From Jeotgalibacillus aurantiacus (GTDB lineage Bacteria > Bacillota > Bacilli > Bacillales > Jeotgalibacillaceae): a stretch of 64,000 nucleotides of DNA. The first letter of the stretch is position 1. Each line of letters opens with the position of its first letter. The notes beneath the pieces were generated by a model that was given only the letters and a program-made list of their open reading frames with translations, was not told the DNA's origin and searched no databases. Where the stretch lies: the NCBI RefSeq assembly GCF_020595125.1, contig NZ_JACNMS010000001.1:620001-684000 (forward strand), in the 5' to 3' direction. The position numbers and the translations under genes were made by a program. Shown in pieces: positions 23,617 through 53,924 of the stretch.

Positions 23617-23632
23617 GTCCTTTATTAAGAAC
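23617..23632. promoter_or_regulatory. SinR-type box upstream of precursor 2 (two mismatches)
   Basis: GTCCTTTATTAAGAAC differs at two positions from GTTCTTTATAAAGAAC. It lies 39-54 bp upstream of the precursor start codon, in the 68-bp gap after the lasso exporter gene. No strong -35/-10 pair was seen here. Confidence 0.6.
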
Positions 23633-23645
23633 AACCGGATATGAA

Positions 23646-25436
23646 TTAAGAAACACCCATTTGCTTTTGGAGCAAATGACTAAAAAGATTGCTTTTTTCC
23701 TGTGATAGTTGTTTAAACCCTCCCTGCTGGACCACCCGTCCCTGATCAAGCACAATCACCTGATCTGCGTTTCGGATGGTCGACAGTCTATGTGCAATTA
23801 CCAGGATTGTCATTTTACCTTTTAATTGTTCAATAGCCTTTTGGATACTCGCCTCACTTTCACTGTCAAGTGAGCTTGTCGCTTCATCTAAAACCAATAC
23901 TGATGGCTTCCTTAAAATGGCTCTTGCCAATACAAGACGCTGTCTTTCTCCTCCTGATAGCTTAATCCCCCTGTCTCCAATCAGCGTATCGAGTCCATCA
24001 GGCAGGCGTTTGATAAAATCGGTAGCCGCTGCAAACGATAAAGCTTCCCATAGATCGTCATCATTAGCATCCTCCTTTACGAGCAACAAATTATTACGAA
24101 TCGTTGTATTAAATAGAAAAGGATCCTGAGGAACATAGCTCATTTTTTTTCTCAGTGATTGAATTTTTTCTGCTGTCAGCTTTTCCTGATCAACCAGAAT
24201 TTCACCATGATCTGGAAGGTTCAATCCCATCAGCAGATCAACAAGAGTACTTTTCCCTGCCCCGGACCTTCCAACAAACGCAGTCATTTCATTAGCATTA
24301 ATTTGTATTGAGATGTTCTTTAACGTGAATTCACTGTTTTCAGATTGATACTTAAAGGAAATATTGTTACATGTGATTCCTTCAGTTACTGGTACTGCTG
24401 GCATATGACCTGTAGCATTTCTGATCTCTGCGTTCGCTTTGCACTCCTCCTGGAGCCTCTGAATCCCCGTAAAAGACGGCAGTACCGTGGCAATTTGCTC
24501 AAGAGAGGATTGAATACCTGCCACCCTTGGCCATAGCCTTGAAAAAATCAGCATAATTAAAGCCAATTGAGCCAGTTGAGCATTAAACATCATAATGGCT
24601 ATATAAATGAATCCCGCAATCAGAATAGCTGAAGCCAGTTTATAGTACAGTTGAGATGTGGCTTTCATTGCTGTATATTCTGTCTGCTCATTTTTCATCT
24701 TTTCTGTTAGATCAGAAAACCAGCTAATTCTTGAAGTTTCCAATGAATTGCTCTTAATCTCCTTCATTCCATTAATCTGATCTGTAATCCCTGCCATATA
24801 CGCGCGCTGAAGATCATAATTTCTTTTCCCCAGAAACAGGGATTTTCTTAAGAATTTCCGATTAAAAAATACGAGTGCTCCTCCAAAAACGAGTACGAAG
24901 GTTGTAATGACAGGTGCTAAGATAAATGCAAGTGTGATTTGGAAAATAGTCGTAATGAGTGAAGAGGCAAACTGTAAAACAGCCTGCGTTCCCGCGCTTG
25001 CTCTCATAACCTCACCTGCCAACGCATTAACAAGGTCCGATCTCCTGTTTCCAATAAAGAAAAGCCAGTTGGATCTGATTAAAGCTTCATACGTATTGGT
25101 TCTCAGGTGACGCAGAAAGCCCTGATGGATCACTGCATTTCTGATACTGACTTTGCGATGAAGGATATATTGTAATGCCGCTATTCCCACGAACATACCT
25201 AACACCATAAGAAGGGACCACTGGATATTCATTTCACCCAAAAAAGCGAAAGAAGTAGCGAAAGGGATTTCTGACGTGTCAAATGAGATAATGCCCGTCA
25301 GAGCAATCATTGGGATTAACAAAACAACTGCCGCTCCCTCAAGTAACCCAATCAAAATCATCGCTGAAAGATTCAGATATAAAGTCCTTCCTGCAAACTG
25401 GTTCATTTGTTTGATAAAATAGAGCATTGCTTTCAT
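23646..25436 (-). CDS. ABC transporter of the lasso cluster (D protein)
   Basis: 596 residues, fused six-helix permease and ATPase. Walker A GRSGAGKST is near residue 395, the signature is LSGGERQR, Walker B is VLVLDEATSSLD and the switch is IAHRLST. No peptidase domain, as expected for lasso D proteins, which export the finished lasso peptide and provide immunity. It overlaps the nucleotidyltransferase-like gene by four bases, and the second RiPP cluster starts 68 bp further on with no clear terminator between. Confidence 0.88.
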   Translation of the reverse strand: MKAMLYFIKQMNQFAGRTLYLNLSAMILIGLLEGAAVVLLIPMIALTGIISFDTSEIPFATSFAFLGEMNIQWSLLMVLGMFVGIAALQYILHRKVSIRNAVIHQGFLRHLRTNTYEALIRSNWLFFIGNRRSDLVNALAGEVMRASAGTQAVLQFASSLITTIFQITLAFILAPVITTFVLVFGGALVFFNRKFLRKSLFLGKRNYDLQRAYMAGITDQINGMKEIKSNSLETSRISWFSDLTEKMKNEQTEYTAMKATSQLYYKLASAILIAGFIYIAIMMFNAQLAQLALIMLIFSRLWPRVAGIQSSLEQIATVLPSFTGIQRLQEECKANAEIRNATGHMPAVPVTEGITCNNISFKYQSENSEFTLKNISIQINANEMTAFVGRSGAGKSTLVDLLMGLNLPDHGEILVDQEKLTAEKIQSLRKKMSYVPQDPFLFNTTIRNNLLLVKEDANDDDLWEALSFAAATDFIKRLPDGLDTLIGDRGIKLSGGERQRLVLARAILRKPSVLVLDEATSSLDSESEASIQKAIEQLKGKMTILVIAHRLSTIRNADQVIVLDQGRVVQQGGFKQLSQEKSNLFSHLLQKQMGVS

Positions 25437-26587
25437 ATTTTCACCTCGTCTGTCAGCACCTGCCCTCTACTTTTCCTCCAGATCCACAAAGCGGGTCTAA
25501 GAGGAAAATAAAGCACGTGTAATGATTTAGGAAGTGGCAATGTACGTGCATCTTCCGGGTAAGGATACAATGTACTTACAGCAAAAAACAGTTTCTCTGA
25601 TCTCGACATTAGTGAATACAAGTGTTTTTTATGATAAGAAGAAACTTCTTTTTCCAATGGCAAGTCATGAAGGTTAATCATTCTTTCCAGATAAAACATG
25701 GTATCATCAGCTAGTTTTATTGGCTGTCTACCTCTTGTAAAAGACAACGTTTCTTTTGGAAGTTTTGTATGAAATAGACGCTGAACCAACGTAAGTGCCT
25801 GCCCTGCTATGATTGGTGAATAATGCTGATATTCCTTCGTTTTCATCTTTGTCCAGTCCGGCTGCTTTTCAATAAACCTTTGGATATCCAGTAGCCATCT
25901 AAGCCTTGACCATCCGTGCCTGGCTCCATGATGCACCAGAAAATAAAAATAGTCTTCTTTTCCCAGGAAATGAGTACAATGATTTTCCGAACACTTTCGG
26001 GACCATAACCTTTCAAATCCAGGCTCTTTAGAAGGACCCGGATTCAGCCTCCAATGAAGTTCTACTTTGATTTTCTTAGCCGGGTGAAGATACGCAACAT
26101 GATGGTGTCGCCATTTCCAGTCGCCCAGAACTGTTTCAATATAGTCATCTTTTTCATATCCCATAGAAGACAACAGCACTTCGGCCTGCTTAAGCTTTTC
26201 GATCGGTACCATAATATCCAGATCACCAGACGTTCGTAATGACAGGTCGCCGTATAAGTATTTTCCCATCTCCGGCCCTTTCAATTGCATCATCCGAATC
26301 TTATTCTCATGAAACAATTGATTCAGCTGATTCATTTCTGCTGCAAGATGAAGCATCTTGAATACGTTTTGTTTGTACCACAATTCCAATTTTAGTAACA
26401 CATGATCAGGAATATCTTTTCTTTGCTGATTCATTATTTCTACATACAAAATGGGATATACCCTGTGATGCCTTGCTTCCTTTAAAAAAAGTGACCAATC
26501 CACTTTGTTTGCTAAAGCAGAAGAGTCACGGTTAATAATCGATAGCATAAAGATAAATTCCGTTGTCAATCTGTTACTATTGTTCAT
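25433..26587 (-). CDS. nucleotidyltransferase-fold protein of the lasso cluster
   Basis: 384 residues, NTP_transf_5-like. MMQLKGPEMGKYLYGDLSLRTSGDLDIMV at about residues 97-125 carries the family motif with the DLD metal pair; HHGARHGWSRLRW parallels CLHGWRHN of the cluster-2 paralogue. Members of this family accompany paeninodin-type lasso genes. What it transfers, and whether it acts on the phosphorylated peptide, is not known to me. It overlaps its neighbours by four bases on each side, so it is translationally coupled. Confidence 0.78.
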   Translation of the reverse strand: MNNSNRLTTEFIFMLSIINRDSSALANKVDWSLFLKEARHHRVYPILYVEIMNQQRKDIPDHVLLKLELWYKQNVFKMLHLAAEMNQLNQLFHENKIRMMQLKGPEMGKYLYGDLSLRTSGDLDIMVPIEKLKQAEVLLSSMGYEKDDYIETVLGDWKWRHHHVAYLHPAKKIKVELHWRLNPGPSKEPGFERLWSRKCSENHCTHFLGKEDYFYFLVHHGARHGWSRLRWLLDIQRFIEKQPDWTKMKTKEYQHYSPIIAGQALTLVQRLFHTKLPKETLSFTRGRQPIKLADDTMFYLERMINLHDLPLEKEVSSYHKKHLYSLMSRSEKLFFAVSTLYPYPEDARTLPLPKSLHVLYFPLRPALWIWRKSRGQVLTDEVKI

Positions 26588-27057
26588 CGCACCCGACTCC
26601 TTTTCCGAAGATCAGGCAGCTCTTTCGCAAACATTCCAACAACCGTATATCTGCTTCTTCCCTTCGCACCGGTAATGATGAAGGGACCGCTGCGAAGCCA
26701 GGCGTGCGCAGCCAGTTTGCCGGATTCATCTTTTCCTGTGCCAAGATACAATGTACTTGGAATGTCTCTGCGAGAGAGCATATTCATTGCGGCTACTGCC
26801 TGAACAAGACACATACTTTCCCACGGGGTATAACGGCTCATAATTTGAACGGCTTGCGAAACAGCTGCCAGTGTTTGACGATCCTGATCTTTCAGTTCAT
26901 GTGACGTTTCCTTCATTCGTTCTCCAAGTTTTAATGACGCTTTTTCAAATGGAAGAGCCTTAAATAGTCTTCCATAGGCTAGCTGAATGTATGCTTCACC
27001 AAGCATCCATTTGAATTGGGGATCCATCTCACGAAATAGCTGAAGTCTTGCTATCAT
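26584..27057 (-). CDS. lasso peptide B2 protein (transglutaminase-like leader protease)
   Basis: 157 residues starting MIARLQLFREMD; AAAGGAGG seven bases upstream favours this over the in-frame ATG at 27075. The Cys protease signature is CLVQAVAAMNMLSRRDIPSTLYLG with Cys near residue 80, and the His is in AAHAWLRSG near 118. B2 proteins cleave the leader after binding via the B1/RRE protein, giving the free N-terminus for ring closure. Family length and motifs are complete. Confidence 0.93.
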   Translation of the reverse strand: MIARLQLFREMDPQFKWMLGEAYIQLAYGRLFKALPFEKASLKLGERMKETSHELKDQDRQTLAAVSQAVQIMSRYTPWESMCLVQAVAAMNMLSRRDIPSTLYLGTGKDESGKLAAHAWLRSGPFIITGAKGRSRYTVVGMFAKELPDLRKRSRVR

Positions 27058-27071
27058 CGCTCTGCCTCCTT

Positions 27072-27362
27072 TCACTCATGTTGAATCAGATTTTCCTTTA
27101 ATAGTTCGTTAATAAAATGGAGGACTTCTTTTTCGCATTGCGCCCGTTCCACTTCATACCGGATTGTCAACTCATCAACCATGCCAGAAACTGTGATAGG
27201 AGAGGACATCAGTGTCCAGATTTCCCCACCAATCGAACCAAGGTTATAGTACTTTCCATTCTGAATACTTAACATGACTTTCTCACCGTTCATATCACTT
27301 ACCATATGCCCGGGCTGTTGTGAAACAACTGAATTTATTGTTAGTTCATTTTGCTTTTGCAT
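27072..27362 (-). CDS. lasso peptide B1 protein (PqqD-like RiPP recognition element)
   Basis: 96 residues with the PqqD-type core: MLSIQNGKYYNLGSIGGEIWTLMSSPITVSGMVDELTIRYEV, then a final helix. It binds the leader of the precursor and hands it to the B2 protease. The start has AGGAGAG and overlaps the end of the kinase gene by 17 bp, and the B2 ribosome site lies across its stop codon, so these genes are tightly coupled. Confidence 0.9.
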   Translation of the reverse strand: MQKQNELTINSVVSQQPGHMVSDMNGEKVMLSIQNGKYYNLGSIGGEIWTLMSSPITVSGMVDELTIRYEVERAQCEKEVLHFINELLKENLIQHE

Positions 27363-28275
27363 AACTGGATCTCTCCTTTTGAGCGGTTTTTGTTACGTAA
27401 TCAGCCAGTTCTTCTGCAGTAATTTTATGCTGCGGACGATTAAGCTTATAGATTTGAACCGAAGCTGCTAATTGAGCCGTTACATTAAAATGCCATTCGG
27501 TGAGTCCCATACGTTCAAGAAATGACTTACGGTACGTATGTTGAAACAGAACCGGAAAAGTCTGCAGTCCATTAATTTCTATTAGTGTAATGTCAGTTCT
27601 TTCAGATTTCGATAACTCAAAAATACCAGCAAGTTCGACCTCCCCGTCATAAAAGTGATGGCCAGCCGGGACGTTGTATTTCGTTTCGCGCGCCATGATG
27701 GATTCATATGGTTCTGTATCCATTTTGAAAAGATCCAGGCTTTCCACCCACAATTTTTGCTGCGCGTAAGAGGATGTAATGTAAGGCACACCTTCTTTAA
27801 ATTGAATGGGAAGGATGTCATCACTGATCAGCTTATATCCTCTTTTCATTAAAGCTCTGGCCAGCGTGGATTTACCGGCTCCTGACTCTCCCACAACTGC
27901 ATAAGCGAGGCCACCGATGATCACTGCGCTGCCATGAAGAGGAAGCACTTTTCTTTGCATCAAAATAGCTCCCATACACGTTCCGAGTAAAAAGAGTTTG
28001 AGCTGACGATTTTCAATCATTGGAAACGGGTCATATAAAATCGTTTGCCCTCCTCTCACTCTGAACACTCCAACATTTTTGATTTCAAAGAAAAGCTCTT
28101 CTTCAGAAACAAGAAAACGGCGATTTCCAGGTTTGATATGAAACCACTCATCGATTAAATCAGCACGCATAATACTGACATCACTTATCTGGTTCGACTT
28201 TGTCAATTCTTTCATTTCGATATCACTTGTAATCCCCATACCAAAGGCACGATAAAAGTGTTTATTTGTTGTCAT
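27346..28275 (-). CDS. lasso peptide kinase (HPr-kinase-like, PadeK-type)
   Basis: 309 residues starting MTTNKHFYRAFGMGI after AGGAGGG. The P-loop GESGAGKST is near residue 130, followed by YKLISDDILPI with the acidic DD of the HprK fold. In the paeninodin system, a homologue phosphorylates the C-terminal Ser of the precursor (established). The precursor here also ends in Ser, so the same reaction is expected. It is the first enzyme gene after the precursor and follows an attenuator-like terminator. Confidence 0.88.
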   Translation of the reverse strand: MTTNKHFYRAFGMGITSDIEMKELTKSNQISDVSIMRADLIDEWFHIKPGNRRFLVSEEELFFEIKNVGVFRVRGGQTILYDPFPMIENRQLKLFLLGTCMGAILMQRKVLPLHGSAVIIGGLAYAVVGESGAGKSTLARALMKRGYKLISDDILPIQFKEGVPYITSSYAQQKLWVESLDLFKMDTEPYESIMARETKYNVPAGHHFYDGEVELAGIFELSKSERTDITLIEINGLQTFPVLFQHTYRKSFLERMGLTEWHFNVTAQLAASVQIYKLNRPQHKITAEELADYVTKTAQKERSSYAKAK

Positions 28276-28292
28276 AATCAACCCTCCTTTTT

Positions 28293-28329
28293 AAAAAGAG
28301 CCCTTATACCATAGCTCGCATATAAGGGC
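28293..28329 (-). terminator. attenuator-type terminator after the lasso precursor
   Basis: GCCCTTATA and TATAAGGGC stem followed by TCTTTTT on the minus strand, between the precursor and the kinase gene. It probably sets a high precursor-to-enzyme ratio. Confidence 0.8.
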
Positions 28330-28347
28330 GGCGATAAGTATCATGGT

Positions 28348-28479
28348 TTAGCTGAAGTGATCTGCTTCTTCTTCATCTGGATCATCGTTAAATTCATCAG
28401 GTGTTCTTAGCCCCGGACCTGCAAAAGTTTCTTCCACATCAAGGCTGTTCAGCCATGGAGTTGACCAGTTCTTCTTCAT
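28348..28479 (-). CDS. lasso peptide precursor, paeninodin-like
   Basis: 43 residues, below usual gene-calling length. AGGAGG lies eight bases before the ATG. The leader MKKNWSTPWLNSLDVEETF has the W-x-x-P-x-L and LDV pattern of the PadeA family, with the conserved Thr at -2 (T18). The predicted 24-residue core begins AGPGLRTPD, giving a ring of nine between Ala1 and Asp9; paeninodin starts AGPGTSTPD. The tail is acidic (DDPDEEEADHFS) and ends in Ser, the residue phosphorylated in paeninodin. It sits between cyclase and kinase genes. Confidence 0.95.
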   Translation of the reverse strand: MKKNWSTPWLNSLDVEETFAGPGLRTPDEFNDDPDEEEADHFS

Positions 28480-28494
28480 TCATTTCACCTCCTT

Positions 28495-30408
28495 TCAATG
28501 GTTTAAGATAAAGCGTGAAGCGATCAAGCTTCGCATCAGCACTTTAAATTCATAATCGGTTACAAGAGAAGGAATCGGTTGATCAGGCAGGTTATGTGCG
28601 ATCTTCTTCAGTTTGTTAAGATCAATATATTTTTCAAGTATCGGGTTTCCGGACAGACCTGTTAATTCATTTTTCAGCTCTGGCCAGTTTCTTTGAAGCC
28701 TGAAAGATGTATCCGCACTCTGCAGCCCTCTAACCTTATAGTTGAGCCTGACTTCATCTGGAAGGATCCCTTGCATTGAGCGTCTGATCAGTGCGCGATC
28801 CATTCCTTTTTTCACAAATTGATTCTGAGGAATAGATAAACAATAATTAATAATTCTAAGATCATTTGTTGGATCTCTTGTCCAAATTCCATATTTCAAA
28901 GATAACTTTCCGGCAACAGCCGCATTCCCCATATAGAAGAGGTGTCGGAAATAGTTCTGCCTTTTTTCGTGATTATTGGCCACAATAAAATCATGTCGCA
29001 TAAGAGGATATTGACTAAGTGTTTCTTCAACTTTTGTTTTGTCAGCCAGACTGTCACTGATCAACACTTCCATTGCAGGTGCAGCTTTTTGTGAGCTGAA
29101 TGCGCTTCTTCCTATCTGCTGGATGATTTTTTTGCGCCCTTTACCAGTCATGAGATGATAATGCTGTACTTCCATTCCCAACTTGATTAGATGCCCCTTT
29201 TTCAACAAGTCAGCATAATAACTAAGTGCGTTGCCCCATGACACTGTATGATTCCCTCGACCTCCACTCAGCAAAATGCCGGCTCCCATGGATGATGCCT
29301 TTTCATTAATCCCCCTGATCCAGTGGGAGTTCTCGAAAAATTTATAAGGTGACTCCATAATATCAAGCCATTCGTCGATTCCTGTAAAGCTGTTTTGATC
29401 AGGGAATGATTCAAAATATCCCTCCATATTTCCGGAAAAATCAATGGTGTGTTTGATAAATTCACTTTCATCCGCAATTCGGCTTCCCTTTATCCAATTT
29501 TGAAAGCCTGGAACCGGAACTGAACTGAATGTTAATAGCTTTTTTTGCTGGATCTTTAACTCTCGTGCTGCGATTGATGCGACAGATCCCGAGTCGAGGC
29601 CACCACTCAAGTAAGAGCTCACCCGTTTAAAGGTTCGAAGCCGGTCCTTTATGGCACGTCTATAGATTTCAAGGAAAGCTTCTTCATATTCTTCGTCTTT
29701 TTTAAACTTTATTTGCTTCTGTTGAGGAAGCGTAATGTATTGAGTAAGTTTTACATTTCCATCCTTCACTGTGATTGAGTGAGCGGGTGGAACCTGATAA
29801 ATATGTTGATAAGCTGTTTCTCCTATACTCACTGCCGGAACAAATTCCGGAATAGCAAGAAATTCAGCAAGCCAGTGATCATTTAACTGTTTAGGTACAT
29901 CTGGTATTGCATGTAGCGAAGCGATCGTACTGCCAAAATAAAATCGTTCCACGCTGCGTGCATAATAGAGCGTTCTAAGTCCCGAAAAATCTCTAGCACC
30001 AAATAGACGTCTTTTATTCTCATCCCAAATCATAAAAGCAAAGTCACCAATTAAATGAGCCGGTAAGTCCTCTCCCCATTTCAGGTAAGCTTCAACGATC
30101 AGGCGGCTATCCGTCATTTCCTTTCTTAATCCAGGATCGATACCCAACTCATTGAAAAGTTCAGAACGATTATCAATAATCGCGTCTGCTGTGATAACAA
30201 CTCCAGATTTCGGACATCGATAAGGCTGTATCTCTCCGATCGATTCCGGTGTAATCCATTGAGCATGATTTCCGAAGAAGAGTGATTTTTCCTGAAACAC
30301 GCGCTGATCATCATAAGGGAATCTTTCCAGCGATTGCATCATCCTAAGACTATATTCAACAGGGATGGTGCGATGCTGCAGATCAATCATTCCAACAATA
30401 GCGCTCAT
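28495..30408 (-). CDS. lasso peptide cyclase (asparagine synthetase-like C protein)
   Basis: 637 residues. The start MSAIVGMIDL follows GAGGAGGTGAG; the longer in-frame extension to 30498 crosses operator sequence and is rejected. The N-terminal glutaminase-like domain has Ser rather than Cys at position 2, so glutamine hydrolysis is not expected, as in other lasso cyclases. The synthetase domain has the PP-loop YLSGGLDSGS near residue 268. It activates the Asp9 side chain with ATP and forms the ring amide. It is the first gene after the SinR-box promoter, and its stop lies 15 bp before the precursor start. Confidence 0.93.
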   Translation of the reverse strand: MSAIVGMIDLQHRTIPVEYSLRMMQSLERFPYDDQRVFQEKSLFFGNHAQWITPESIGEIQPYRCPKSGVVITADAIIDNRSELFNELGIDPGLRKEMTDSRLIVEAYLKWGEDLPAHLIGDFAFMIWDENKRRLFGARDFSGLRTLYYARSVERFYFGSTIASLHAIPDVPKQLNDHWLAEFLAIPEFVPAVSIGETAYQHIYQVPPAHSITVKDGNVKLTQYITLPQQKQIKFKKDEEYEEAFLEIYRRAIKDRLRTFKRVSSYLSGGLDSGSVASIAARELKIQQKKLLTFSSVPVPGFQNWIKGSRIADESEFIKHTIDFSGNMEGYFESFPDQNSFTGIDEWLDIMESPYKFFENSHWIRGINEKASSMGAGILLSGGRGNHTVSWGNALSYYADLLKKGHLIKLGMEVQHYHLMTGKGRKKIIQQIGRSAFSSQKAAPAMEVLISDSLADKTKVEETLSQYPLMRHDFIVANNHEKRQNYFRHLFYMGNAAVAGKLSLKYGIWTRDPTNDLRIINYCLSIPQNQFVKKGMDRALIRRSMQGILPDEVRLNYKVRGLQSADTSFRLQRNWPELKNELTGLSGNPILEKYIDLNKLKKIAHNLPDQPIPSLVTDYEFKVLMRSLIASRFILNH

Positions 30409-30428
30409 CAGGCTCACCTCCTCTTTTT

Positions 30429-30444
30429 GTTCTTTAAAAAGAAC
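30429..30444. promoter_or_regulatory. SinR-type box (lasso operon, proximal)
   Basis: GTTCTTTAAAAAGAAC, one mismatch to the perfect palindrome, just upstream of the cyclase ribosome site. Confidence 0.8.
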
Positions 30445-30500
30445 AAACGCTTTATAAAAATAGAGACACCGATATAATTTTTTGGTATCCCAATCCATTT

Positions 30501-30555
30501 GTTCTTTATAAAGAACTTCATAATTTGATTTTACTCCTTTTTTTCAACAAGTCAA
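30501..30555 (-). promoter_or_regulatory. lasso operon promoter with perfect SinR-type box
   Basis: On the minus strand TTGACT (30550-30555), a 16-bp spacer and TAAAAT (30528-30533) form a sigma-A promoter. GTTCTTTATAAAGAAC at 30501-30516 lies 11 bp downstream of the -10, over the expected transcription start. With the second box 72 bp further down this suggests cooperative repression. Confidence 0.8.
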
Positions 30556-30570
30556 TACTTTTTTTACTAA

Positions 30571-31281
30571 TTAAAAATTTTGTTTAAAAATATCTAAATT
30601 TGGATATTTATTTACTTCCAGCGACTTTAAATACGCCTCTCTATCAAGCGGAAATGAAAAATGATTCACTGAAAGTGTAGTCTTGTTTATCTCTAAAACT
30701 GCAAAATGGCCCTTGCTGCTTTGATCCAAGGGCAAACCAATACTCCCGGTGTTAATAATGTGTTTTTTATTGACCTTGCGATAGAAAGGATCATGAATAT
30801 GTCCATAAACATAAATGTTTGAATTGTTGTCATTCATATCGAAACTCTCATTAAATTGCTCATAAGATGACGATGCCGGAACAACATCAAATAGATTGAC
30901 TGGTGTTGCATGAAAAAAATTCAGTTTATACCCTTCAGCATCCAGGCTTCCGGTAGTAGGTAACTGTTGTAAAAAAGAAAGGTCCTGATGGGTCAATTGA
31001 GATAACACCCAATCCCTCTCCATTTCCATCAAACTACGCGTACTTTCATTTATTTCTCCTTTGTTGAACCCCCTTACGATCCATTCATCAGCATTTCCTT
31101 TAATCACTATATCAGGCTTCAGGTCATGAAGAATTTCGAGCACTTTGGACGGATCAGCACCCCGGAAACACAGATCACCTAAAACAATAATTTTGTCAGG
31201 TTTTATTGTTTTGATGATGCCGATTGATTGTTCAAGAGCTTGTGCATTACCATGAATATCAGATAAAAAGACAATTTTCAT
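30571..31281 (-). CDS. YfcE-like metallophosphoesterase
   Basis: 236 residues, cytoplasmic. The motifs are complete and in order: LSDIHGN (DxH), LGDLCFRG (GD), VIKGNADEW (GNxD), FFHATP and YGHIHDP (GHxH). This group includes phosphodiesterases and protein phosphatases of the YfcE/MJ0936 type. The start has AGGTGGAAT. It follows the ABC flippase gene and ends 16 bp before the lasso promoter, so it may belong to the eps transcript or act beside the lasso kinase; its target is unknown. Confidence 0.8.
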   Translation of the reverse strand: MKIVFLSDIHGNAQALEQSIGIIKTIKPDKIIVLGDLCFRGADPSKVLEILHDLKPDIVIKGNADEWIVRGFNKGEINESTRSLMEMERDWVLSQLTHQDLSFLQQLPTTGSLDAEGYKLNFFHATPVNLFDVVPASSSYEQFNESFDMNDNNSNIYVYGHIHDPFYRKVNKKHIINTGSIGLPLDQSSKGHFAVLEINKTTLSVNHFSFPLDREAYLKSLEVNKYPNLDIFKQNF

Positions 31282-31311
31282 TCATATTCCACCTTTCACG
31301 GTCCAACCTGC

Positions 31312-33075
31312 TTACATTGCTGACTTAACTCCACCTTTGTGAGTATTGACAAGCTTTCCATCATTCATTGTAAACTTGATATCACAACTCTCGATAGTTG
31401 ATAACCGATGGGCAATCATGATCAGTGTTTTTTCACCCTTCAGCTTATAAATAGCTTCCATAATTTCTTTCTCAGTTTCATGATCCAATGCGGATGTTGC
31501 TTCATCCATGAACAACACCTCAGGGTTATAGTATAAAGCCCTTGCGATTCCTATTCTCTGGCGCTGACCTCCCGATAGCCTTACTCCTCTTTCTCCTACC
31601 ATGGTATCAAGCTGATCAGGTAAGCTTAAAACAAAGTCTTTTAACTGTGCTTTTTCCAGTGCATTCCAGACCATTTCATCCCTGATTTCTTTTTCATCCA
31701 GACCAAATGCTACGTTGGATCTGATCGTATCGTCAGACAAAAAAATCACCTGAGGAATATAACCGATTGTTTTTTGCCAGTGGTCTTTCTGGTGCTCAAA
31801 CGGTAAGCCGTTTATTTTCAGGGTTCCATTGGAAGGTTGCAAAAGACCCAGAATAATGTCGACAATCGTTGTTTTTCCTGCACCGGACGCACCGATAAAC
31901 GCAACGGATTTTCCAGCAGGAATGGTCAGGGATACATCCTGTATCGTTGCTTTTGTCTGATTAGGGTAAAAGAATGAGACATTTTCAAGTGTAATTTCAT
32001 CAATTTTACGTTCGTACTGAGACCCTGTTTCCTTATTGTTCCGTACTTCAACCGATAGTTCCACCTCAAATAAGTCCTCATACACCGCATCTAATGAAGG
32101 CTGACTGTATCGAATTGTTGTAATTAGAGCAACAACTCTGGTAATAGACGGCATAAGTCTGAATGCAGCCATTGCGAATAGAGCCATTGTCGAGATAAGC
32201 TCTGCTGTATTTTTCCCTTGAAACACAATAATCATTAATGTGACGAGCACCACGATCACGAGCATCGTCTCAATAAAGAGCCGCGGAACCTGCTCAAGTA
32301 CCTTCATATACCTGCTGTTATTTGCCTTGACCTGACTTTGGCTCGTATATTTACGAACAAAAAATTGTTCTTTACCTGACACCTTAACCTCTTTGGCCGC
32401 CCCCAGTCCCTGATTCACCCATTTTATTAATTGCCCTGACACCTCTCTTTGTTCCTTTCCGAGACTGCTCACCTTATGGCGGAATATATAATGAAAAATG
32501 CTCATACTTCCACCGAGTAGCACGGCAGCCGTCAGGGTTGCGATTGGAGATGTGTAAAACAACAAAGTCAGGATACAAATAATGACCAGCACTTCAGTAG
32601 CAAGCTGAAAAGCAGATAACAGTATTCCCTGTAACACTTTTGGAACTTCTTCATTCACATTTCTTAATAAGCCTGAAGTATTTCTCTGAAGATGAAAAGT
32701 GTAAGGTTTTGTTAAATATACATTAAACAAGTCTCTGGAAAGTTTAACCTGATGATTCAAAACAACTTTAAACTGCACGTACTGATATAAAAGAAGGTAG
32801 GTGTTCTTAAAAAAGAACAAAGAAAGCATAAAAATAACTGCTGCAAAAACAAATTGATTGTAAGCAGTGAATCCAAACTGAGAATACACTGAGCTGATGA
32901 TTTCATTTTGTTCAATGATATCCGGCTGTGTGATTATGCCGATCAAAGGTACGATTAACCCTATTCCCAGTGTTTCAAGGAATGCTGCAATGACCATCAT
33001 TCCCAGCAGAACCATAAATTTTTTCCGCTCTTTAGAAGTAAGCATATGATTAATTTTTTTTATCGATTGAATCAT
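31312..33075 (-). CDS. ABC transporter, PglK-like glycolipid flippase candidate
   Basis: 587 residues: six membrane helices (about 15-310), then an ATPase with Walker A GASGAGKTT, LSGGQRQR, Walker B VLFMDEATSALD and IAHRLST. It starts with AGGAGG and directly abuts the glycosyltransferase gene (one base apart). Placed at the far end of the eps locus, which has no MOP/Wzx-type flippase, it is the best candidate for moving the lipid-linked repeat unit across the membrane, as PglK does. A peptide-export role for the adjacent lasso cluster is less likely because that cluster has its own exporter. Confidence 0.75.
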   Translation of the reverse strand: MIQSIKKINHMLTSKERKKFMVLLGMMVIAAFLETLGIGLIVPLIGIITQPDIIEQNEIISSVYSQFGFTAYNQFVFAAVIFMLSLFFFKNTYLLLYQYVQFKVVLNHQVKLSRDLFNVYLTKPYTFHLQRNTSGLLRNVNEEVPKVLQGILLSAFQLATEVLVIICILTLLFYTSPIATLTAAVLLGGSMSIFHYIFRHKVSSLGKEQREVSGQLIKWVNQGLGAAKEVKVSGKEQFFVRKYTSQSQVKANNSRYMKVLEQVPRLFIETMLVIVVLVTLMIIVFQGKNTAELISTMALFAMAAFRLMPSITRVVALITTIRYSQPSLDAVYEDLFEVELSVEVRNNKETGSQYERKIDEITLENVSFFYPNQTKATIQDVSLTIPAGKSVAFIGASGAGKTTIVDIILGLLQPSNGTLKINGLPFEHQKDHWQKTIGYIPQVIFLSDDTIRSNVAFGLDEKEIRDEMVWNALEKAQLKDFVLSLPDQLDTMVGERGVRLSGGQRQRIGIARALYYNPEVLFMDEATSALDHETEKEIMEAIYKLKGEKTLIMIAHRLSTIESCDIKFTMNDGKLVNTHKGGVKSAM

Positions 33076-34224: not shown

Positions 34225-34238
34225 CCTTCACGCCTCCT

Positions 34239-40385: not shown

Positions 40386-40730
40386 TTAAGATTCCGTACC
40401 ATTGCGCTGTTCATTTTTCCATTTAATGTATTCCAAAATCATCCGGTATTCTTTAAGCTGATTCTTATCAACACCGTGATCCTTCAGCTCCTGAATGAAC
40501 TCTGTCCATTCTTTGTTTTCTTTTGAGGAAGACGGCATATTTAGCAGTCTTTTCACATCAACCTCAAGTACTTTGGCAATTTTTTCAATGACTTGAATGG
40601 ATGGGTTTTGTTTAAGATTACGTTCAATGTTGCTTAGATAAGATTTGGATACCCCTGACCGTTCTGCAAGCTCTGATAATGTCATGCCTTTTTCCCGTCT
40701 GATTTTGTAAATGTTTTCTCCTATCATCAT
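40386..40730 (-). CDS. sinR: SinR homologue, biofilm master-repressor type
   Basis: 114 residues. The N-terminal HTH (GENIYKIRREKGMTLSELAE, then SGVSKSYLSNIERNLKQNPS) closely follows B. subtilis SinR (IGQRIKQYRKEKGYSLSELAE, SYLSSIERNL). The C-terminus (EWTEFIQELKDHGVDKNQLKEYRMILEYIKWKNEQ) matches the SinR/SinI dimerisation domain. SinR binds GTTCTYT half-sites and represses eps and tapA operons (established). It sits inside the eps operon here, not beside sinI, and no SinI-like antirepressor was found in the window. Palindromes of two such half-sites lie at the eps and RiPP promoters. Confidence 0.9.
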   Translation of the reverse strand: MMIGENIYKIRREKGMTLSELAERSGVSKSYLSNIERNLKQNPSIQVIEKIAKVLEVDVKRLLNMPSSSKENKEWTEFIQELKDHGVDKNQLKEYRMILEYIKWKNEQRNGTES

Positions 40731-44243: not shown

Positions 44244-44271
44244 TGTATCCCTCCTTTTATTTCCATATAAT

Positions 44272-44301: not shown

Positions 44302-44313
44302 CTCATTCCATCA

Positions 44314-45390: not shown

Positions 45391-45406
45391 TCTGATCTCA
45401 CCCTTT

Positions 45407-48539: not shown

Positions 48540-48552
48540 TTCACACTCCCTC

Positions 48553-49443
48553 CTATTGTTTAGCAATCTGATACTCATTAACTTTCTGAACAAGATACTC
48601 CAGCAAACCATCGTGCAATTCTTCGTTTTTCAGTGCAAAGTCAATGGTCGTTTGAATAAAGCCCATTTTTTCACCCACGTCATAGCGTGTGCCCTCAAAT
48701 TCGTAGGCATAGACTGCTTCAGATTTATTTAAAGCAGCAATGGCATCCGTCAATTGAATTTCATTGCCTGCCCCAGGCTTTTGCTCACTGAGCAGATCCA
48801 TAATGCCCGGTGTCAGTATGTACCGGCCAAGGATCGCAAGGTTTGATGGTGCCAGGTGAATTTCAGGTTTTTCAACAAGTTCTTCGATATAAAATAACCT
48901 GTCATTCACTGGTCTTCCGTCTACTATGCCGTACCTCGAGACTTCCTGTTCCTTTACTTTCTGCACGCCTACAATAGAGGCATTGTACCTTGCGTACACA
49001 TCCAGAAGTTGCTTTAAGCAAGGCGTTTGGGCCTGTACAATGTCATCTCCCAGCAAGACTGCAAATGGTTCATTTCCAATAAACTTTCTCGCACACCAGA
49101 TGGCATGACCAAGCCCTTTTGGTTCCTTTTGACGAATATAATGAATATCAACGAGTCTTGAGGAATGCTGAACGACATCTAAAAGATCGAACTTACCCTT
49201 TTCATATAGATTTTGTTCAAGCTCAAATGAATGATCAAAATGATCCTCAATTGCTCTTTTACCTTTGCCTGTGACGATGATAATATCTTCAATCCCGGCT
49301 GCGATTGCCTCCTCCACAATGTACTGAATGGTTGGCTTATCAACAATTGGAAGCATTTCTTTGGGCATCGCTTTAGTTGCGGGTAAGAACCTGGTTCCCA
49401 ATCCGGCTGCCGGAATAATAGCTTTTCTCACTTTCAATTCCAT
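48553..49443 (-). CDS. galU: UTP-glucose-1-phosphate uridylyltransferase
   Basis: 296 residues. [31 protein letters not shown] is the GalU/GtaB signature; [20 protein letters not shown], and [11 protein letters not shown]-like sequence, follow. Makes UDP-glucose, which galE downstream can convert to UDP-galactose. Its presence in the eps operon supplies the precursor locally. The start matches the homologous N-terminus despite a close GGGGTGG site. Confidence 0.95.
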
Positions 49444-49449
49444 CCACCC

Positions 49450-51267
49450 CTATCCTGATATTGGCAAACTCGAAATTTTACGGTTAGAAATTTCAAGTAG
49501 TGCATGTCTGATTGCATCCGGATGCATCGTTTCATAATGCAATATCAACTGATTAATTTCTGTAAGATACAATCCTGACGTTTTCCCCGTATAGATTTTC
49601 GGGTAGACTTGATCCGGATTCACTTCATCTTCATTTAACAGTTCTTCGTAAAGCTTTTCACCCGGTCTTATTCCAATGAACTCAATTCCAATCTCTTCTA
49701 TTGAATAACCGGAGAGCTTAATCATATTTCTTGCCAAATCTACAATTTTAACCGGATCGCCCATATCAAGAACAAATATTTCTCCACCTTTGGCTAATGC
49801 TCCAGATTGGATAACGAGCCTTGAGGCCTCAGGGATGGTCATAAAATATCGAATCATATCAGGGTGAGTAACTGTCACCGGCCCTCCCTGTTCAATTTGT
49901 TGCTTAAAATGCGGAATGACACTACCTCTGCTTCCAAGAACATTTCCAAAGCGGACAGCGGCAAAGATGGTTTCACTTCCCTGATTCATTTGCTGTACGA
50001 TCATTTCTGCAAGTCTTTTTGAAGCACCCATTACACTTGTTGGATTCACTGCTTTATCAGTTGAAATCATAATAAATATTTCAACACCTGCCTGGTGAGC
50101 TGCCTGCGCTGTATTTTTTGTACCTATGATATTGTTTTTTACAGCTTCCTCCGGATTTTTTTCCATAAGTGGAACATGTTTGTGCGCTGCAGCATGATAT
50201 ACGATGTCTGGACGATAATGGTTCATGATATGCAATATCCGTTTAAAGTCCTGCACGTCTGCAATCTCAGTGTAAAGCTGAATACCCGAAACCCTTAATG
50301 AACCAATCATTTCCATTTCGATTTTGTAAATACTGTTTTCACCATGTCCAAGAAGAATGATGGTGTCTGGTTGAAACTTCGCTACCTGGCGGACAATCTC
50401 TGATCCGATTGAACCACCTGCGCCCGTAACCAATACCGTTTTTCCATTTAATTTGGAAGAAATTTTCTCCAAGTCAAGTTCCACAGGGTCTCTTCCGAGT
50501 AAATCTTCCACCTGAACATCCCGGGCCTGATAAACAGATACTTTCCCCGAAACGAGATCTTCAATCATAGGTAAAATCTTAGTTTCTGCTTCGGTTTTTG
50601 CACACTGCTCGAAGATGACGTTCAACTGCCTCTTACTCAGTGAAGGAATGGCAATAATAATATTATCGATCATATATTCTCTCACGTTTTTTTCAATATC
50701 AGCTACGCATCCTACAACCGGAATTCCCAAAATGTCTAGATTCTGTTTTCTTGGATTGTCATCAATAAAAGCAACAGGGAGCATATCTCCGTCCTGACTT
50801 TGGATAAGCTGTCTTGCGATCATTGTACCTGCTGAGCCTGCTCCGATGATTAACGTCCGTTTTTTATCATCATGTCGGCGAATGACACGATCACGAAACA
50901 ATCTCCAAGCAAACCTTGAACCACCGATAAAAAACAAGTGAAGTAACAAAGTCACTGCAAGCATTCTGAAAAACATTTCCTGAAACACAAATTGCTGTAT
51001 CCCCCCAGCCAAAATGACTGAAAAAAATACAGTTTTACATATCGCAGAAAGTTCACCAATACTGGCATATTCCCAAGCTTTCTTATACAAATGGTAACGA
51101 AATGAAAAGATTAAGTGACCGCTTACAAGAACCACAGCTGTTAATACGATAGGTGCCGTCAGCACTTCAATACTGGCATTCACCAAAAAACCACTGAAGA
51201 ATACTGACATTAAAACAATGGTCGTATCAACTAATATAAACAGTGAAAGTCTCTGTTTATAAGACAT
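49450..51267 (-). CDS. epsC: nucleoside-diphosphate sugar 4,6-dehydratase (EpsC/CapD-like)
   Basis: 605 residues starting MSYKQRLSLFILVDTTIVLMS after AAAGGAGG. Four N-terminal membrane helices (to about 120), a Rossmann region (LIIGAGSAGTMIARQL), then the dehydratase domain with VTGAGGSIGSEIVRQ near 290, DIVYHAAAHKHVPLME and STDKAVNPTSVMGASKR, where Met replaces the usual Tyr, as is normal for this large membrane subgroup. Converts UDP-GlcNAc to the 4-keto-6-deoxy sugar for EpsN and EpsM. Confidence 0.93.
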   Translation of the reverse strand: MSYKQRLSLFILVDTTIVLMSVFFSGFLVNASIEVLTAPIVLTAVVLVSGHLIFSFRYHLYKKAWEYASIGELSAICKTVFFSVILAGGIQQFVFQEMFFRMLAVTLLLHLFFIGGSRFAWRLFRDRVIRRHDDKKRTLIIGAGSAGTMIARQLIQSQDGDMLPVAFIDDNPRKQNLDILGIPVVGCVADIEKNVREYMIDNIIIAIPSLSKRQLNVIFEQCAKTEAETKILPMIEDLVSGKVSVYQARDVQVEDLLGRDPVELDLEKISSKLNGKTVLVTGAGGSIGSEIVRQVAKFQPDTIILLGHGENSIYKIEMEMIGSLRVSGIQLYTEIADVQDFKRILHIMNHYRPDIVYHAAAHKHVPLMEKNPEEAVKNNIIGTKNTAQAAHQAGVEIFIMISTDKAVNPTSVMGASKRLAEMIVQQMNQGSETIFAAVRFGNVLGSRGSVIPHFKQQIEQGGPVTVTHPDMIRYFMTIPEASRLVIQSGALAKGGEIFVLDMGDPVKIVDLARNMIKLSGYSIEEIGIEFIGIRPGEKLYEELLNEDEVNPDQVYPKIYTGKTSGLYLTEINQLILHYETMHPDAIRHALLEISNRKISSLPISG

Positions 51268-51288
51268 ACTATTCCTCCTTTCCCGTCC

Positions 51289-51340
51289 ATAAAAATAGAA
51301 GGATAATGACCGGATCATCACACTATCCTTCTATTTTTAT
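51289..51340 (-). terminator. 17-bp perfect inverted repeat before epsC
   Basis: Arms at 51289-51305 and 51324-51340 (ATAAAAATAGAAGGATA and its complement) are perfectly complementary with an 18-nt loop and end in CTATTTTTAT on the transcript. It lies just before the epsC ribosome site and looks like a conditional terminator. Confidence 0.65.
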
Positions 51341-51344
51341 ATTT

Positions 51345-51480
51345 ATAAATTGAAATAAATCGGGCATTTAACCCACCCTCACTCCATGCCAACGACGACT
51401 TGCGTCTAAGGTGTGTTTCAACCCACAGCATGATCGAGTGCCTCCATTGATAACAGTCAGGAGACATCACTGTTATTTCT
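51345..51480 (-). ncRNA. EAR (eps-associated RNA)-like element, candidate
   Basis: The structured, conserved-looking RNA region lies between epsB and epsC, exactly where the EAR antitermination element sits in B. subtilis. Visible pairings include AACAGT/ACTGTT and GGGT...GCCC segments such as GGTGGGTTAAATGCCCG. EAR lets RNA polymerase read through terminators inside the eps operon, of which two candidates are seen downstream. The identity rests on position and my memory of the family, not on a covariance search. Confidence 0.6.
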
Positions 51481-51494
51481 TCCGTTACAACATA

Positions 51495-51510
51495 ATTCTT
51501 AATAAAGAAC
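51495..51510. promoter_or_regulatory. SinR-type box between epsB and epsC (two mismatches)
   Basis: ATTCTTAATAAAGAAC differs at two positions from the perfect palindrome. Confidence 0.5.
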
Positions 51511-51527
51511 AATTTATTCAAAAAAAT

Positions 51528-52196
51528 TCATCGCTCATTCATAATGGCACCTATCACATTTGCATGTGCCAGATTCAGAATCCTTTTGACTTCCAGCGCA
51601 TCCTGAAAGATAACCTTTCCTCTTCTGACAACGAGCAGAACGCCATCTGCAAGGTTAGTTAAAATCCGGGTTTCTGTGTAATCAAGTACATTAGGGGCAT
51701 CAATAATAATGGCATCATATTCTTTTGAGACTTTATCAAGCAGTTGTTTCATCTGCTCACTGCCTAACAGTTCAGCTGGATTATATTCGTCCGGTCCGCT
51801 TGTGAGAATATCCAGCCTGCTGATTTCTCCTTTATGCATTACTTCAGCTAGAGACCGCCTGGATTTTAAGACAGTGGTGAGGCCGTGATGGTTGTCCAGA
51901 TGAAAATACTGGTGAATGACCGGCTTTCTCAAATTAGCATCAATGAGAAGTACTCTTTCTTTTTGTTGAGATAATAAAGTAGCCAGGTTTACCGCTGCTG
52001 TAGACTTTCCTTCCCCTTTGGTTGAAGAAGTAAGAACAAATATTTTCATTGGCTGATCGGTCATCAGAAATTTAATATTGGTCCGTATCGTATGAAATTC
52101 ATCAGCAAGCGCAGAGTCAGGATGTGTATAAGTGTAAACACTTCGTTTTTTATCAGCTGTGGTCTGCTGCCTTTTTCGTAATTTCAATCTGCTCAC
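51528..52196 (-). CDS. epsB: BY-type tyrosine kinase (EpsB/CpsD-like)
   Basis: 222 residues. Walker A SSTKGEGKSTAAVNLA, Walker A' VLLIDANLRKPVIHQYF and Walker B DAIIIDAPNVLDYTE identify the chain-length regulating kinase that pairs with EpsA. The protein ends at VIGAIMNER, without the Tyr-rich C-terminal cluster normally autophosphorylated. It overlaps epsA by 44 bp. The start is uncertain between GTG 52196 and a TTG nine bases later. Confidence 0.9.
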   Translation of the reverse strand: MSRLKLRKRQQTTADKKRSVYTYTHPDSALADEFHTIRTNIKFLMTDQPMKIFVLTSSTKGEGKSTAAVNLATLLSQQKERVLLIDANLRKPVIHQYFHLDNHHGLTTVLKSRRSLAEVMHKGEISRLDILTSGPDEYNPAELLGSEQMKQLLDKVSKEYDAIIIDAPNVLDYTETRILTNLADGVLLVVRRGKVIFQDALEVKRILNLAHANVIGAIMNER

Positions 52197-52899
52197 CCCT
52201 TATTTCGACTGCTTTTTTTCTTGGTTGCTTTAACACTTTTTTCTTTCTCGCATCCGGTACATATCCTATGACCGGGACACCAAAGAATTCTTCAGCGTCC
52301 TCCTCAACTCTAATAGCGCGGTCAAGCGTATCCAGAAAGAAGGCTAAACCGATTCCAAGTGCAAGACCCGCTGCTGCAGCCAAATAAACGAATCGGTTAC
52401 TCAAAGGATTAACTGGATTAAAATTTGGCATTGCTTCTGTAAGTAGTTGAACGCCTTCATACGCGAGAATGCTTCTTGCTTCTTCTTTGAAATTCAAAGC
52501 TGTTGCATTGGCAATGTCTGCAGCAATCTGAGGATCAGAATCTGCTACTGTTATACTGACAACCTGAGATTCCTCTAATCTTTCAACTGTCACCTGAGAA
52601 GCGAGTGCCTGAGGAGAACGTTCAATTCCAATATCTAGAGCAACCTGAGTCATAACTGTAGGGTCTTTTAACATCACCATTAAAGTTTCCATAGGAACAT
52701 CAGGAGACGTCAAAATAACCCTCGTTGATGTTTGAAACATTGGTGAATAAGTCAAATTATTATAGTAGTAAGCCATTCCACCTAACAAAATTGTTAAGAG
52801 TAAAATGAGGATTAACCTTTTCTTAATCACTTTTACATATTCCATTAAGTTTATATCTCTGGATCCTGGCGTATAGGAACTTACTCCTTTGCCTTTCAC
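52153..52899 (-). CDS. epsA: Wzz-type chain length determinant / kinase activator (EpsA-like)
   Basis: About 248 residues. The GTG start (KGKGVSSYTPGSRDINLMEY) follows AGAGGGTGA; an ATG at 52917 lacks a ribosome site. Two membrane helices at about residues 30-48 and 180-200 flank the extracytoplasmic domain (VILTSPDVPMETLMVMLKDPTVMTQVALDIGI). The cytoplasmic C-terminus (RVEEDAEEFFGVPVIGYVPD) would activate EpsB. It is the first gene of the eps operon, behind a SinR-box promoter. Confidence 0.9.
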   Translation of the reverse strand: MKGKGVSSYTPGSRDINLMEYVKVIKKRLILILLLTILLGGMAYYYNNLTYSPMFQTSTRVILTSPDVPMETLMVMLKDPTVMTQVALDIGIERSPQALASQVTVERLEESQVVSITVADSDPQIAADIANATALNFKEEARSILAYEGVQLLTEAMPNFNPVNPLSNRFVYLAAAAGLALGIGLAFFLDTLDRAIRVEEDAEEFFGVPVIGYVPDARKKKVLKQPRKKAVEIRGEQIEITKKAADHS

Positions 52900-52924
52900 T
52901 GTGTTCACCCTCTTCATTCATTTT

Positions 52925-52940
52925 ATTCTTTATAAAGAAC
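52925..52940. promoter_or_regulatory. SinR-type box near the epsA start (one mismatch)
   Basis: ATTCTTTATAAAGAAC, 26-41 bp upstream of the epsA GTG. A second operator 97 bp from the promoter box. Confidence 0.75.
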
Positions 52941-53015
52941 ATGCAGTGTAAAAATAAGATCCCTATGCGAGGAACAGGGACTTTTGTTTTAAAAAATAAT
53001 TCAAGTGTCTTCTTT

Positions 53016-53044
53016 ATTTTAGTTCTTTATAAAGAACATGTCAA
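53016..53044 (-). promoter_or_regulatory. eps operon promoter with SinR-type box as spacer
   Basis: On the minus strand TTGACA (53039-53044), 17-bp spacer, TAAAAT (53016-53021). The perfect palindrome GTTCTTTATAAAGAAC occupies 53022-53037, i.e. all but one base of the spacer, so repressor and RNA polymerase cannot bind together. Confidence 0.88.
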
Positions 53045-53641
53045 CCTGTTTTTTTTGCTTTTTTAACTCCTGACCAGTGGAGAATAAATTTTTTATATTG
53101 TGTGTTTAAGGAATAAAAATAAATCTTTATAAGGTACACATTTCTTTTAGTACCGGCTACCGATCTGACAGGGAAATACACAGGAACCAGTTTTGTTGTC
53201 GGACCATCCAGGTTGATCCTGTTACCTTTAAATCTTCTCCTAGAAATCGTTTTGCACGATGAAAAAATTTGTTCTCCATTAAGCCGATATAGCCTTCCGG
53301 AAAGTATGTTTGATAGTGTTCACGGAATATCTGATAAAAATATATGTCATTTTACCTTTTCTCTGATAATCTCGTAATAGAGATAATCGATCCACTTCCC
53401 ATAATGTCTCTATTTGAATATTGTCTGTTCTGTACCGCTTGGATAAGGTTTCGATTGGTATAATTGATGCAGGAGTAAATTCAACTGTGCCAATGGGCTT
53501 TTTGTATTTACGATCATATATTAAATAACGGATAGACTCTTTACGATAGGGGGCATCGAGCCAATGATTCTTATTAATTGTATGCTCCCAGATATCTTTA
53601 AATATTTTTCCTTCCTCCATTGTTGAAACGTGCTTAAACAT
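53041..53641 (-). pseudogene. GNAT/acyl-transferase-like gene broken by two frameshifts
   Basis: The first frame gives 120 residues (MFKHVSTMEEGKIFKDIWEH ... WEVDRLSLLRDYQRKGKMTYIF) and stops at 53279. Switching frame near 53340 continues plausibly as YQIFREHYQTYFPEGYIGLM, ENKFFHRAKRFLGEDLKVTG, and switching again near 53205 gives DGPTTKLVPVYFPVRSVAGT and ends at 53041. The pattern resembles FeeM/autoinducer-synthase-like GNAT proteins (WEVDRLSL, GLMENKFF, LVPVYFPV). Two frameshifts in about 140 bp suggest decay, or less likely assembly error. Its 3' end reaches the eps promoter -35. Confidence 0.65.
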
Positions 53642-53710
53642 ATCAGATCACTTCTTGTTAGAAAAAGCTGAAGGAGCATACCCTTCAGCCGATTCTTGCT
53701 CATTTACATT

Positions 53711-53848
53711 CTATGATGACGCTCCGGATACATCATCCTCACAGTCATCATCTTTTCCACCATGATCTCCCCCACCATAATCAAAAAAGTTCATTTTCAA
53801 TGAAACGTCCAAGTTCTCCAGATGCAGCGAATGCCATTTTTCTTTCAT
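53711..53848 (-). CDS. orphan RiPP precursor candidate with lasso-type leader
   Basis: 45 residues, too short for ordinary gene calling. AGGAGGGTTACC precedes ATG. MKEKWHSLHLENLDVSLKM aligns without gaps to the lasso precursor leader: W5, L10, L13-D14-V15. The region after residue 19 reads NFFDYGGGD, so Asp28 falls at the same position as the ring-closing Asp of the lasso precursor, although Lys replaces the usual Thr at -2 and the first core residue would be Asn. The tail is acidic (KDDDCEDDV) and ends GASS, with terminal Ser as in phosphorylated lasso peptides. No modifying enzymes are adjacent. Confidence 0.7.
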   Translation of the reverse strand: MKEKWHSLHLENLDVSLKMNFFDYGGGDHGGKDDDCEDDVSGASS

Positions 53849-53872
53849 GGTAACCCTCCTCGCACTCAGGTT

Positions 53873-53924
53873 GTTCTTTATAAAGAACTATGTAAATTTA
53901 CCATATATTTTAAAATAATGTCAA
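53873..53924 (-). promoter_or_regulatory. promoter of the orphan precursor with perfect SinR-type box
   Basis: TTGACA at 53919-53924 and TAAATT at 53895-53900 (18-bp spacer) on the minus strand. GTTCTTTATAAAGAAC at 53873-53888 covers the expected start site, 25 bp before the ATG. Confidence 0.75.

Follow-up and report, generated by a model that had tools for sequence, protein, structure and literature searches.

The stretch of DNA analyzed here (the window) comprises 64,000 nucleotides of the Jeotgalibacillus aurantiacus genome (contig NZ_JACNMS010000001.1, positions 620,001 to 684,000). It carries an eps polysaccharide locus with an embedded SinR-family gene, two clusters for ribosomally synthesized and posttranslationally modified peptides (RiPPs), one of the lasso type and one resembling those for linear polyphosphorylated peptides (LPPs), and an orphan precursor peptide gene. 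Dispersed among these genes are copies of a 16-bp palindrome, GTTCTTT-AT-AAAGAAC, a 7+2+7 inverted repeat that very probably serves as an operator for the repressor SinR. The seven copies listed in an initial annotation of the window were all recovered, three perfect, two with one mismatch and two with two mismatches, at the positions given in Table 1. Two further matches were rejected as operators: one at 32803 (2 mismatches) lies inside an ABC transporter open reading frame (ORF; 31312-33075) and may well be due to chance, and one at 20053 (3 mismatches) lies inside ORF 19997-21805. Together, the nine matches with up to 3 mismatches compare with 0.71 expected, and nine was reached by none of 100 shuffles. 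The exact 16-mer was used for the counts in the window, the whole genome and 12 genomes of the genus and for the genome-wide comparison by SinR content. A degenerate pattern, GTTCTYTNNARAGAAC (GTTCTYT-NN-ARAGAAC in the class-wide search upstream of cyclase genes), with up to 2 mismatches unless stated, served for regions upstream of cyclase, TasA, LPP, orphan precursor and further SinR-family genes, for the relatives of eps and for site density. The analysis covered inverted pairs of half-sites.

According to the initial annotation, the palindrome lay at or near the promoters of eps, both RiPP clusters and the orphan precursor gene. This was borne out for three of the four, where a site occupies the promoter spacer or lies just past the −10 box. 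The 17-bp eps spacer between TTGACA (53039-53044) and TAAAAT (53016-53021) consists of the palindrome and a single additional base; a second site precedes the first ATG of epsA, whose true start may be a few codons further in. The lasso promoter consists of TTGACT (30550-30555) and, after 16 bp, TAAAAT (30528-30533), with the perfect palindrome beginning 11 bp later; the second lasso site falls where the cyclase ORF extends upstream of its conserved ATG (30408). The orphan precursor gene has TTGACA (53919-53924) and, separated from it by 18 bp, a weaker −10 box, TAAATT (53895-53900). The claim was weaker for the second RiPP cluster, where the site is degenerate and lies downstream of the lasso exporter gene, and a convincing promoter was looked for beside it at the locus and none was found.

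The initial annotation had also proposed a genome-wide count of the palindrome and of its intergenic share as a check, and the outcome favored operator function. In the 3.5-Mb genome, 20 sites with up to 2 mismatches were identified compared with 3 for the reversed pattern, and 8 of the 20 are inside the window; at up to 1 mismatch there were 9 sites and no reversed match. Judged by eye from ORF lists, all nine of the latter lie outside evident genes, and the 6 of 20 sites found inside ORFs each have 2 mismatches. Across 12 Jeotgalibacillus genomes (the source genome, G000, and G001 to G011), 71 sites with up to 1 mismatch were found compared with 0 for the reversed pattern. The eleven genomes other than G000 account for 62 of these sites, and 6 of the 62 overlap ORFs of at least 110 amino acids; inspection by eye assigned three of the 6 to true genes and the other three to start extensions or overlaps.

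Recurrent targets in the genus at this stringency include eps and the lasso cyclase gene. A site precedes all eight lasso cyclase genes, which come from 7 of the 12 genomes. TasA is present in five of the 12, and all five genes have a site (up to 2 mismatches) no further than about 130 bp upstream; no TasA match was found in the source genome. Both classical SinR targets thus carry the site, eps here and in the genus and tasA in genus-mates. A second site 16 to 49 bp ahead of epsA also occurs in G002, G004, G005, G007 and G008, and a site 180 to 247 bp ahead of epsC occurs in G002, G005, G008 and G010 and not in G004 or G007 (degenerate pattern, up to 2 mismatches). The palindrome also precedes the gene before sinI in G000 and G009. 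With up to 1 mismatch, it was identified in the yyaC-mscS intergenic region of 10 of the 12 genomes (L028:5974 here), where we know of no SinR target, and before a LytR-CpsA-Psr gene in five. One such copy (L026:6169) is a perfect palindrome 22 bp ahead of the LytR-CpsA-Psr gene, which is followed by glycosyltransferase-like genes and perhaps marks a second polysaccharide locus. A protein with RYKDFEY near its N terminus (L031:4605, L152, L160, L176 and L190) has a palindrome 91 to 98 bp upstream of its gene in G002, G005, G009 and G010; the site has up to 1 mismatch in 4 of the 12 genomes and 2 mismatches in G000, where the protein has no Pfam match.

Elsewhere, 20 lasso loci were collected from genome contigs, and 15 had a site in the 200 bp upstream of the cyclase gene. 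Sites were 70-fold denser there, with 20 in 4 kb compared with 29 in 409 kb elsewhere in the loci. Matches to the SinR family and to the SinI domain were found in 31 of the 32 genome handles, among which G002 and G025 are one genome (same coordinates). A sample of 398 genomes of the class contained 39 with a cyclase match at 1e-60, and the 400 bp upstream of each of 40 cyclase genes outside G000 was compared by SinR content (match threshold, 1e-10). All 19 loci from the 17 genomes with a SinR match had a site, compared with none of the 21 loci from genomes without one (Fisher P = 7.6e-12). An order-1 Markov model predicted 0.03 and 0.07 sites, respectively, and the reversed pattern was found in 0 of 19 and 0 of 21. 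Genome-wide, sites with up to 1 mismatch were present in 15 of 16 genomes with SinR (49 sites; control, 0) and in none of the 21 others (control, 1). In 10 of the 16, the best SinR match was either carried on a different contig or separated by hundreds of kilobases, and the link between palindrome and SinR therefore needs no physical neighborhood.

The half-site and layout of the palindrome match those of the inverted repeat for which purified Bacillus subtilis SinR shows its best binding, with GTTCTYT half-sites inverted across a 2-bp gap in the same 7+2+7 arrangement; a Kd of 300 nM is reported for a duplex holding GTTCTCT-AA-AGAGAAC (PMC3163267). From the positions and conservation of the sites, their co-occurrence with SinR and the protein families encoded, we infer that the palindromes are SinR operators and that SinR represses the eps, lasso and orphan promoters until released by SinI, a reading in which we place high confidence. 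SinR probably represses the LPP peptides as well, together with matrix.

Several observations weigh against this reading. The LPP site is weak, with 2 mismatches here and 3 in G004. Five of the 20 lasso loci (L040, L046, L049, L056 and L057) have no site within the 200 bp preceding the cyclase gene; in L040 and L057 a site precedes the gene before the cyclase, and L056 comes from a genome without a SinR or SinI match, which leaves L046, with sites only downstream, and L049 (G023), with only a 3-mismatch site. In the weakest positive of the class-wide comparison, G190, the only site has 2 mismatches and is 368 bp from the cyclase gene, and the genome contains none with up to 1 mismatch. Furthermore, the loci without SinR come from three genera only (16 from g51, 3 from g61 and 2 from g40) and have a higher G+C content in their upstream DNA (50% versus 36%), such that the 19-to-0 contrast partly reflects lineage; counted by genus it is 10 versus 3, or 1 in 286 by hand arithmetic. 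Finally, 3 of the 62 sites in G001 to G011 fall within apparent true genes, namely, a lasso exporter in G007, an ABC permease in G008 and a response regulator in G009. The G007 copy (L145:2016) is a perfect palindrome within the gene resembling a lasso exporter.

The initial annotation took the gene in the eps locus (Table 1) to encode a SinR homologue. Membership of the SinR family held, but the protein is a paralogue of a separate clade rather than SinR itself. SinR and SinI of this genome are encoded on contig C5, and that SinR is 46% identical to the eps-embedded protein. In a 36-row tree including B. subtilis SinR, the paralogue did not group with the latter and fell in a separate 14-row clade with 100/100 support; in a second tree with 14 more rows the same clade was recovered at 100/100 and now included two proteins from lasso-bearing contigs. 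The trees did not include an SlrR sequence, and identification as SlrR was ruled out by the curated model NF046032, to which the paralogue scored 70.1 bits (cutoff, 250; C5 SinR, 67.7). Its C-terminal domain differs from that of SinR and scored 15.2 bits against the SinI-like domain in Pfam (cutoff, 31.4), compared with 46.9 for C5 SinR, and therefore SinI may not act on the paralogue. Its DNA-reading stretch, compared by eye with the recognition helix placed where we take it to lie, is very similar to that of SinR. Of the 12 genus members, 9 carry the paralogue within their eps locus (G000, G002 to G008 and G010). A third SinR-family clade (VSKSYLSYIER) was identified in G065 and G200, with two palindromes 50 to 200 bp ahead of the gene (L245 and L246), as would be expected if such paralogues were SinR targets themselves.

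This distribution raises the question of which regulator reads the sites. The operators could belong chiefly to the paralogue, as a local regulator of an eps-RiPP island with SinR secondary; its well-supported clade, its recurrence within eps, the resemblance of its DNA-reading stretch to that of SinR and its relatives on lasso contigs of G127 and G401 would all fit. We nevertheless consider this unlikely. In 11 of the 20 lasso-locus genomes (G015 to G019, G021 to G024, G027 and G029), only one match to the SinR family was obtained at 1e-10, in three cases with a TAA inside the match; all seven of these matches that were placed in the tree are SinR proper, and the lasso palindrome is present in 10 of the eleven genomes, L049 being the exception. 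In the genus, sites also occur at tasA and at other places outside the eps-RiPP island.

The direction of control could also differ, with SinR activating the peptide genes or using some sites as roadblocks within operons. In favor of this, the sites at 30429 and 52925 fall between promoter and start, those at 51495 and 23617 fall within runs of genes, and both a positive and a negative role of SinR are reported at B. subtilis kinB (PMC5733473). At the eps, lasso and orphan promoters, however, polymerase would be shut out by a protein on the main site, which overlaps the spacer or the region of the start, and activation or roadblocking appears improbable, more so than control by the paralogue. 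An origin of the palindromes by chance, or as structural elements of AT-rich spacers, has next to no probability. Motif and spacers are alike AT-rich, and three reversed-pattern matches with up to 2 mismatches do arise in the genome by chance, but for sites with up to 1 mismatch this origin is ruled out by the shuffles, the reversed controls and conservation.

SinR, encoded on C5 with its antagonist SinI, would thus bind GTTCTTT-AT-AAAGAAC as a pair of inverted half-sites and keep RNA polymerase off three promoters, those of eps, the paeninodin-type lasso operon and the orphan lasso-like precursor gene, and it probably acts at the LPP precursor gene as well. Release of the cell from SinR by SinI could then lead to polysaccharide and peptides being produced together. 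With eps switched on, the paralogue would be produced as well and could compete for the same sites, or join SinR at them, in a feedback comparable to that of SlrR in B. subtilis.

Table 1. Predicted operators and genes in the window
Feature	Coordinates	Strand	Basis or remark
Predicted eps operator 1, perfect palindrome	53022..53037	-	Pattern match and promoter boxes
Predicted eps operator 2, 1 mismatch	52925..52940	-	7 bp ahead of first ATG of Wzz-like epsA ORF
Operator-like site internal to eps, 2 mismatches	51495..51510	-	Between epsB-like and epsC-like genes
Predicted lasso operator 1, perfect	30501..30516	-	11 bp past −10
Predicted lasso operator 2, 1 mismatch	30429..30444	-	20 bp ahead of cyclase ATG (30408)
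Predicted orphan-precursor operator, perfect	53873..53888	-	6 bp past −10-like box
Weak operator-like LPP site, 2 mismatches	23617..23632	-	29 bp ahead of GTG 23587, 38 bp ahead of likelier ATG 23578
Lasso cyclase (C)	28495..30408	-	Pfam Asn_synthase; NF033535, 364 bits, below cutoff of 525
Paeninodin-family lasso precursor (A)	28348..28479	-	NF033524, 39.8 bits (cutoff, 27)
HprK-like kinase (K)	27346..28281	-	Hpr_kinase_C, 34.3 bits (cutoff, 33.3); NCBIfam matches under cutoff
PqqD-type recognition element (B1)	27072..27362	-	NF033536, 130.7 bits (cutoff, 80)
Lasso leader peptidase (B2)	26584..27075	-	NF033537, 95.7 bits (cutoff, 33)
Nucleotidyltransferase (N), lasso cluster	25433..26587	-	Domain scan
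ABC exporter (D), lasso cluster	23646..25436	-	Translation, labeled by eye
LPP precursor	23375..23587 (from GTG; likelier ATG 23578)	-	YxxPxVxxHQxIxFE leader motif
HprK-like kinase, LPP cluster	22502..23335	-	Position and P-loop by eye; no Pfam hit
PqqD-type recognition element, LPP cluster	22236..22523	-	Domain scan
Signal-peptidase-I-like (LppS-like) peptidase	21818..22249	-	TIGR02228, 39.1 bits, under cutoff of 51.85
ABC exporter, LPP cluster	19997..21805	-	Domain scan
Nucleotidyltransferase, LPP cluster	18932..19978	-	Domain scan
Orphan precursor peptide, 45 amino acids	53711..53848	-	Lasso-like leader, C-terminal Ser, no adjoining cyclase
epsA-like chain-length protein (Wzz)	52153..52917	-	Domain scan
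epsB-like P-loop protein	51528..52196	-	AAA_31
epsC-like nucleotide-sugar epimerase/dehydratase	49450..51321	-	Labeled by eye from translation
SinR paralogue within eps locus	40386..40730	-	89.5 bits to B. subtilis SinR; tree, curated models

Judged by its encoded families, the first RiPP cluster is a paeninodin-type lasso cluster: the PadeA-type precursor, B1 and B2 score over their cutoffs, the HprK-like kinase just over and the cyclase below. The second encodes a leader peptide, recognition element, signal-peptidase-I-like peptidase, kinase, nucleotidyltransferase and exporter with no cyclase, and with the kinase assigned by position and the peptidase below cutoff this set matches the LPP clusters described in PMC13381572. 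Its leader follows YxxPxVLxHQxIxFETxxS with K in place of L, and an NCBIfam scan of the precursor gave no match. Three LPP precursors with the strict motif were available in a wider test, two with a site at 2 mismatches and one at 3. Paenibacillus loci also have sites some 7 kb downstream, which were discarded as LPP operators because, by eye, mostly nucleotidyltransferase-like or glycosyltransferase-like genes are found there; one LPP precursor was located among such sites, in Halobacillus L052.

The orphan precursor likewise had no match in an NCBIfam scan. Counterparts upstream of eps were identified in G002, G007, G008 and G010, where a palindrome is never more than 120 bp away, and also in A. 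pseudalcaliphilus L046. Beside the gene, ORF 53279-53641 looks broken by a frame change; its orthologues in G002, G004, G007, G008 and G010 are open, at 209 to 220 amino acids, and the one in G002 has weak similarity, below cutoff, to FeeM (N-acyl amino acid synthase). Just upstream of the orphan precursor gene, 53993-56137 encodes a right-handed beta-helix protein that probably has a signal peptide. Homologues of the epsC-like protein are found in the eps loci of 8 other genus members (62 to 76% identity).

Control of eps and tapA-sipW-tasA by SinR is established in B. subtilis, where SinR is also linked with SlrR in a double-negative loop (PMC5733473). The Jeotgalibacillus system shares with it the repressor family, the half-site, the inverted repeat, the targets (eps here and tasA in genus-mates) and a SinI gene beside that for SinR. 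Unlike in B. subtilis, the targets here would additionally include the lasso cluster, the orphan precursor and probably the LPP cluster, and the eps locus contains a SinR paralogue scoring below the curated cutoff for SlrR. In Bacillus thuringiensis, SinR is reported to govern the lipopeptide kurstakin (PMC3909190), likewise a peptide natural product linked to biofilm and under SinR control; in contrast to the Jeotgalibacillus peptides, kurstakin is not a RiPP, and B. thuringiensis eps is reported to be outside SinR control. No operator is given in the relevant passages of that account.

The lasso and LPP clusters share their gene sets and their co-location with capsular polysaccharide loci with paeninodin-family lasso and LPP clusters of Bacillota, the biological roles of whose peptides are stated to be unknown in the passages concerned (PMC13381572). 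By reverse transcription-quantitative PCR, lpp, lasso and eps genes of P. alginolyticus are reported to rise together in stationary phase (PMC13381572). The view of the initial annotation that the peptides are tied to matrix through SinR is supported by the contrast among cyclase loci and by that among whole genomes, and the joint rise fits it. SinR has 0 mentions in PMC13381572 and in PMC11705953, and no paper joining SinR and lasso peptides was found among the matches listed in the open-licence PMC literature.

Conserved predicted SinR sites at lasso and phosphorylated peptide genes, here and in many relatives, suggest that these peptides are made together with the biofilm matrix. As a tentative extension, to which we give somewhat less than even credence, paeninodin lasso peptides, LPPs and orphan eps-side precursors may be matrix-phase products of Bacillota. 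Because their operators go with SinR across families, the peptides would on this view have a job inside the biofilm, whether as a part of the matrix, as a matrix-phase signal or in control of kin and competitors, and the eps-embedded paralogue would form a self-locking switch holding polysaccharide and peptides in the on state together. With a SinR operator kept at the lasso promoter, and present or absent together with SinR in the sample, the question of what these peptides do becomes testable with one mutant, and, if the proposed control is true, it would also offer a simple means of switching such peptide clusters on.

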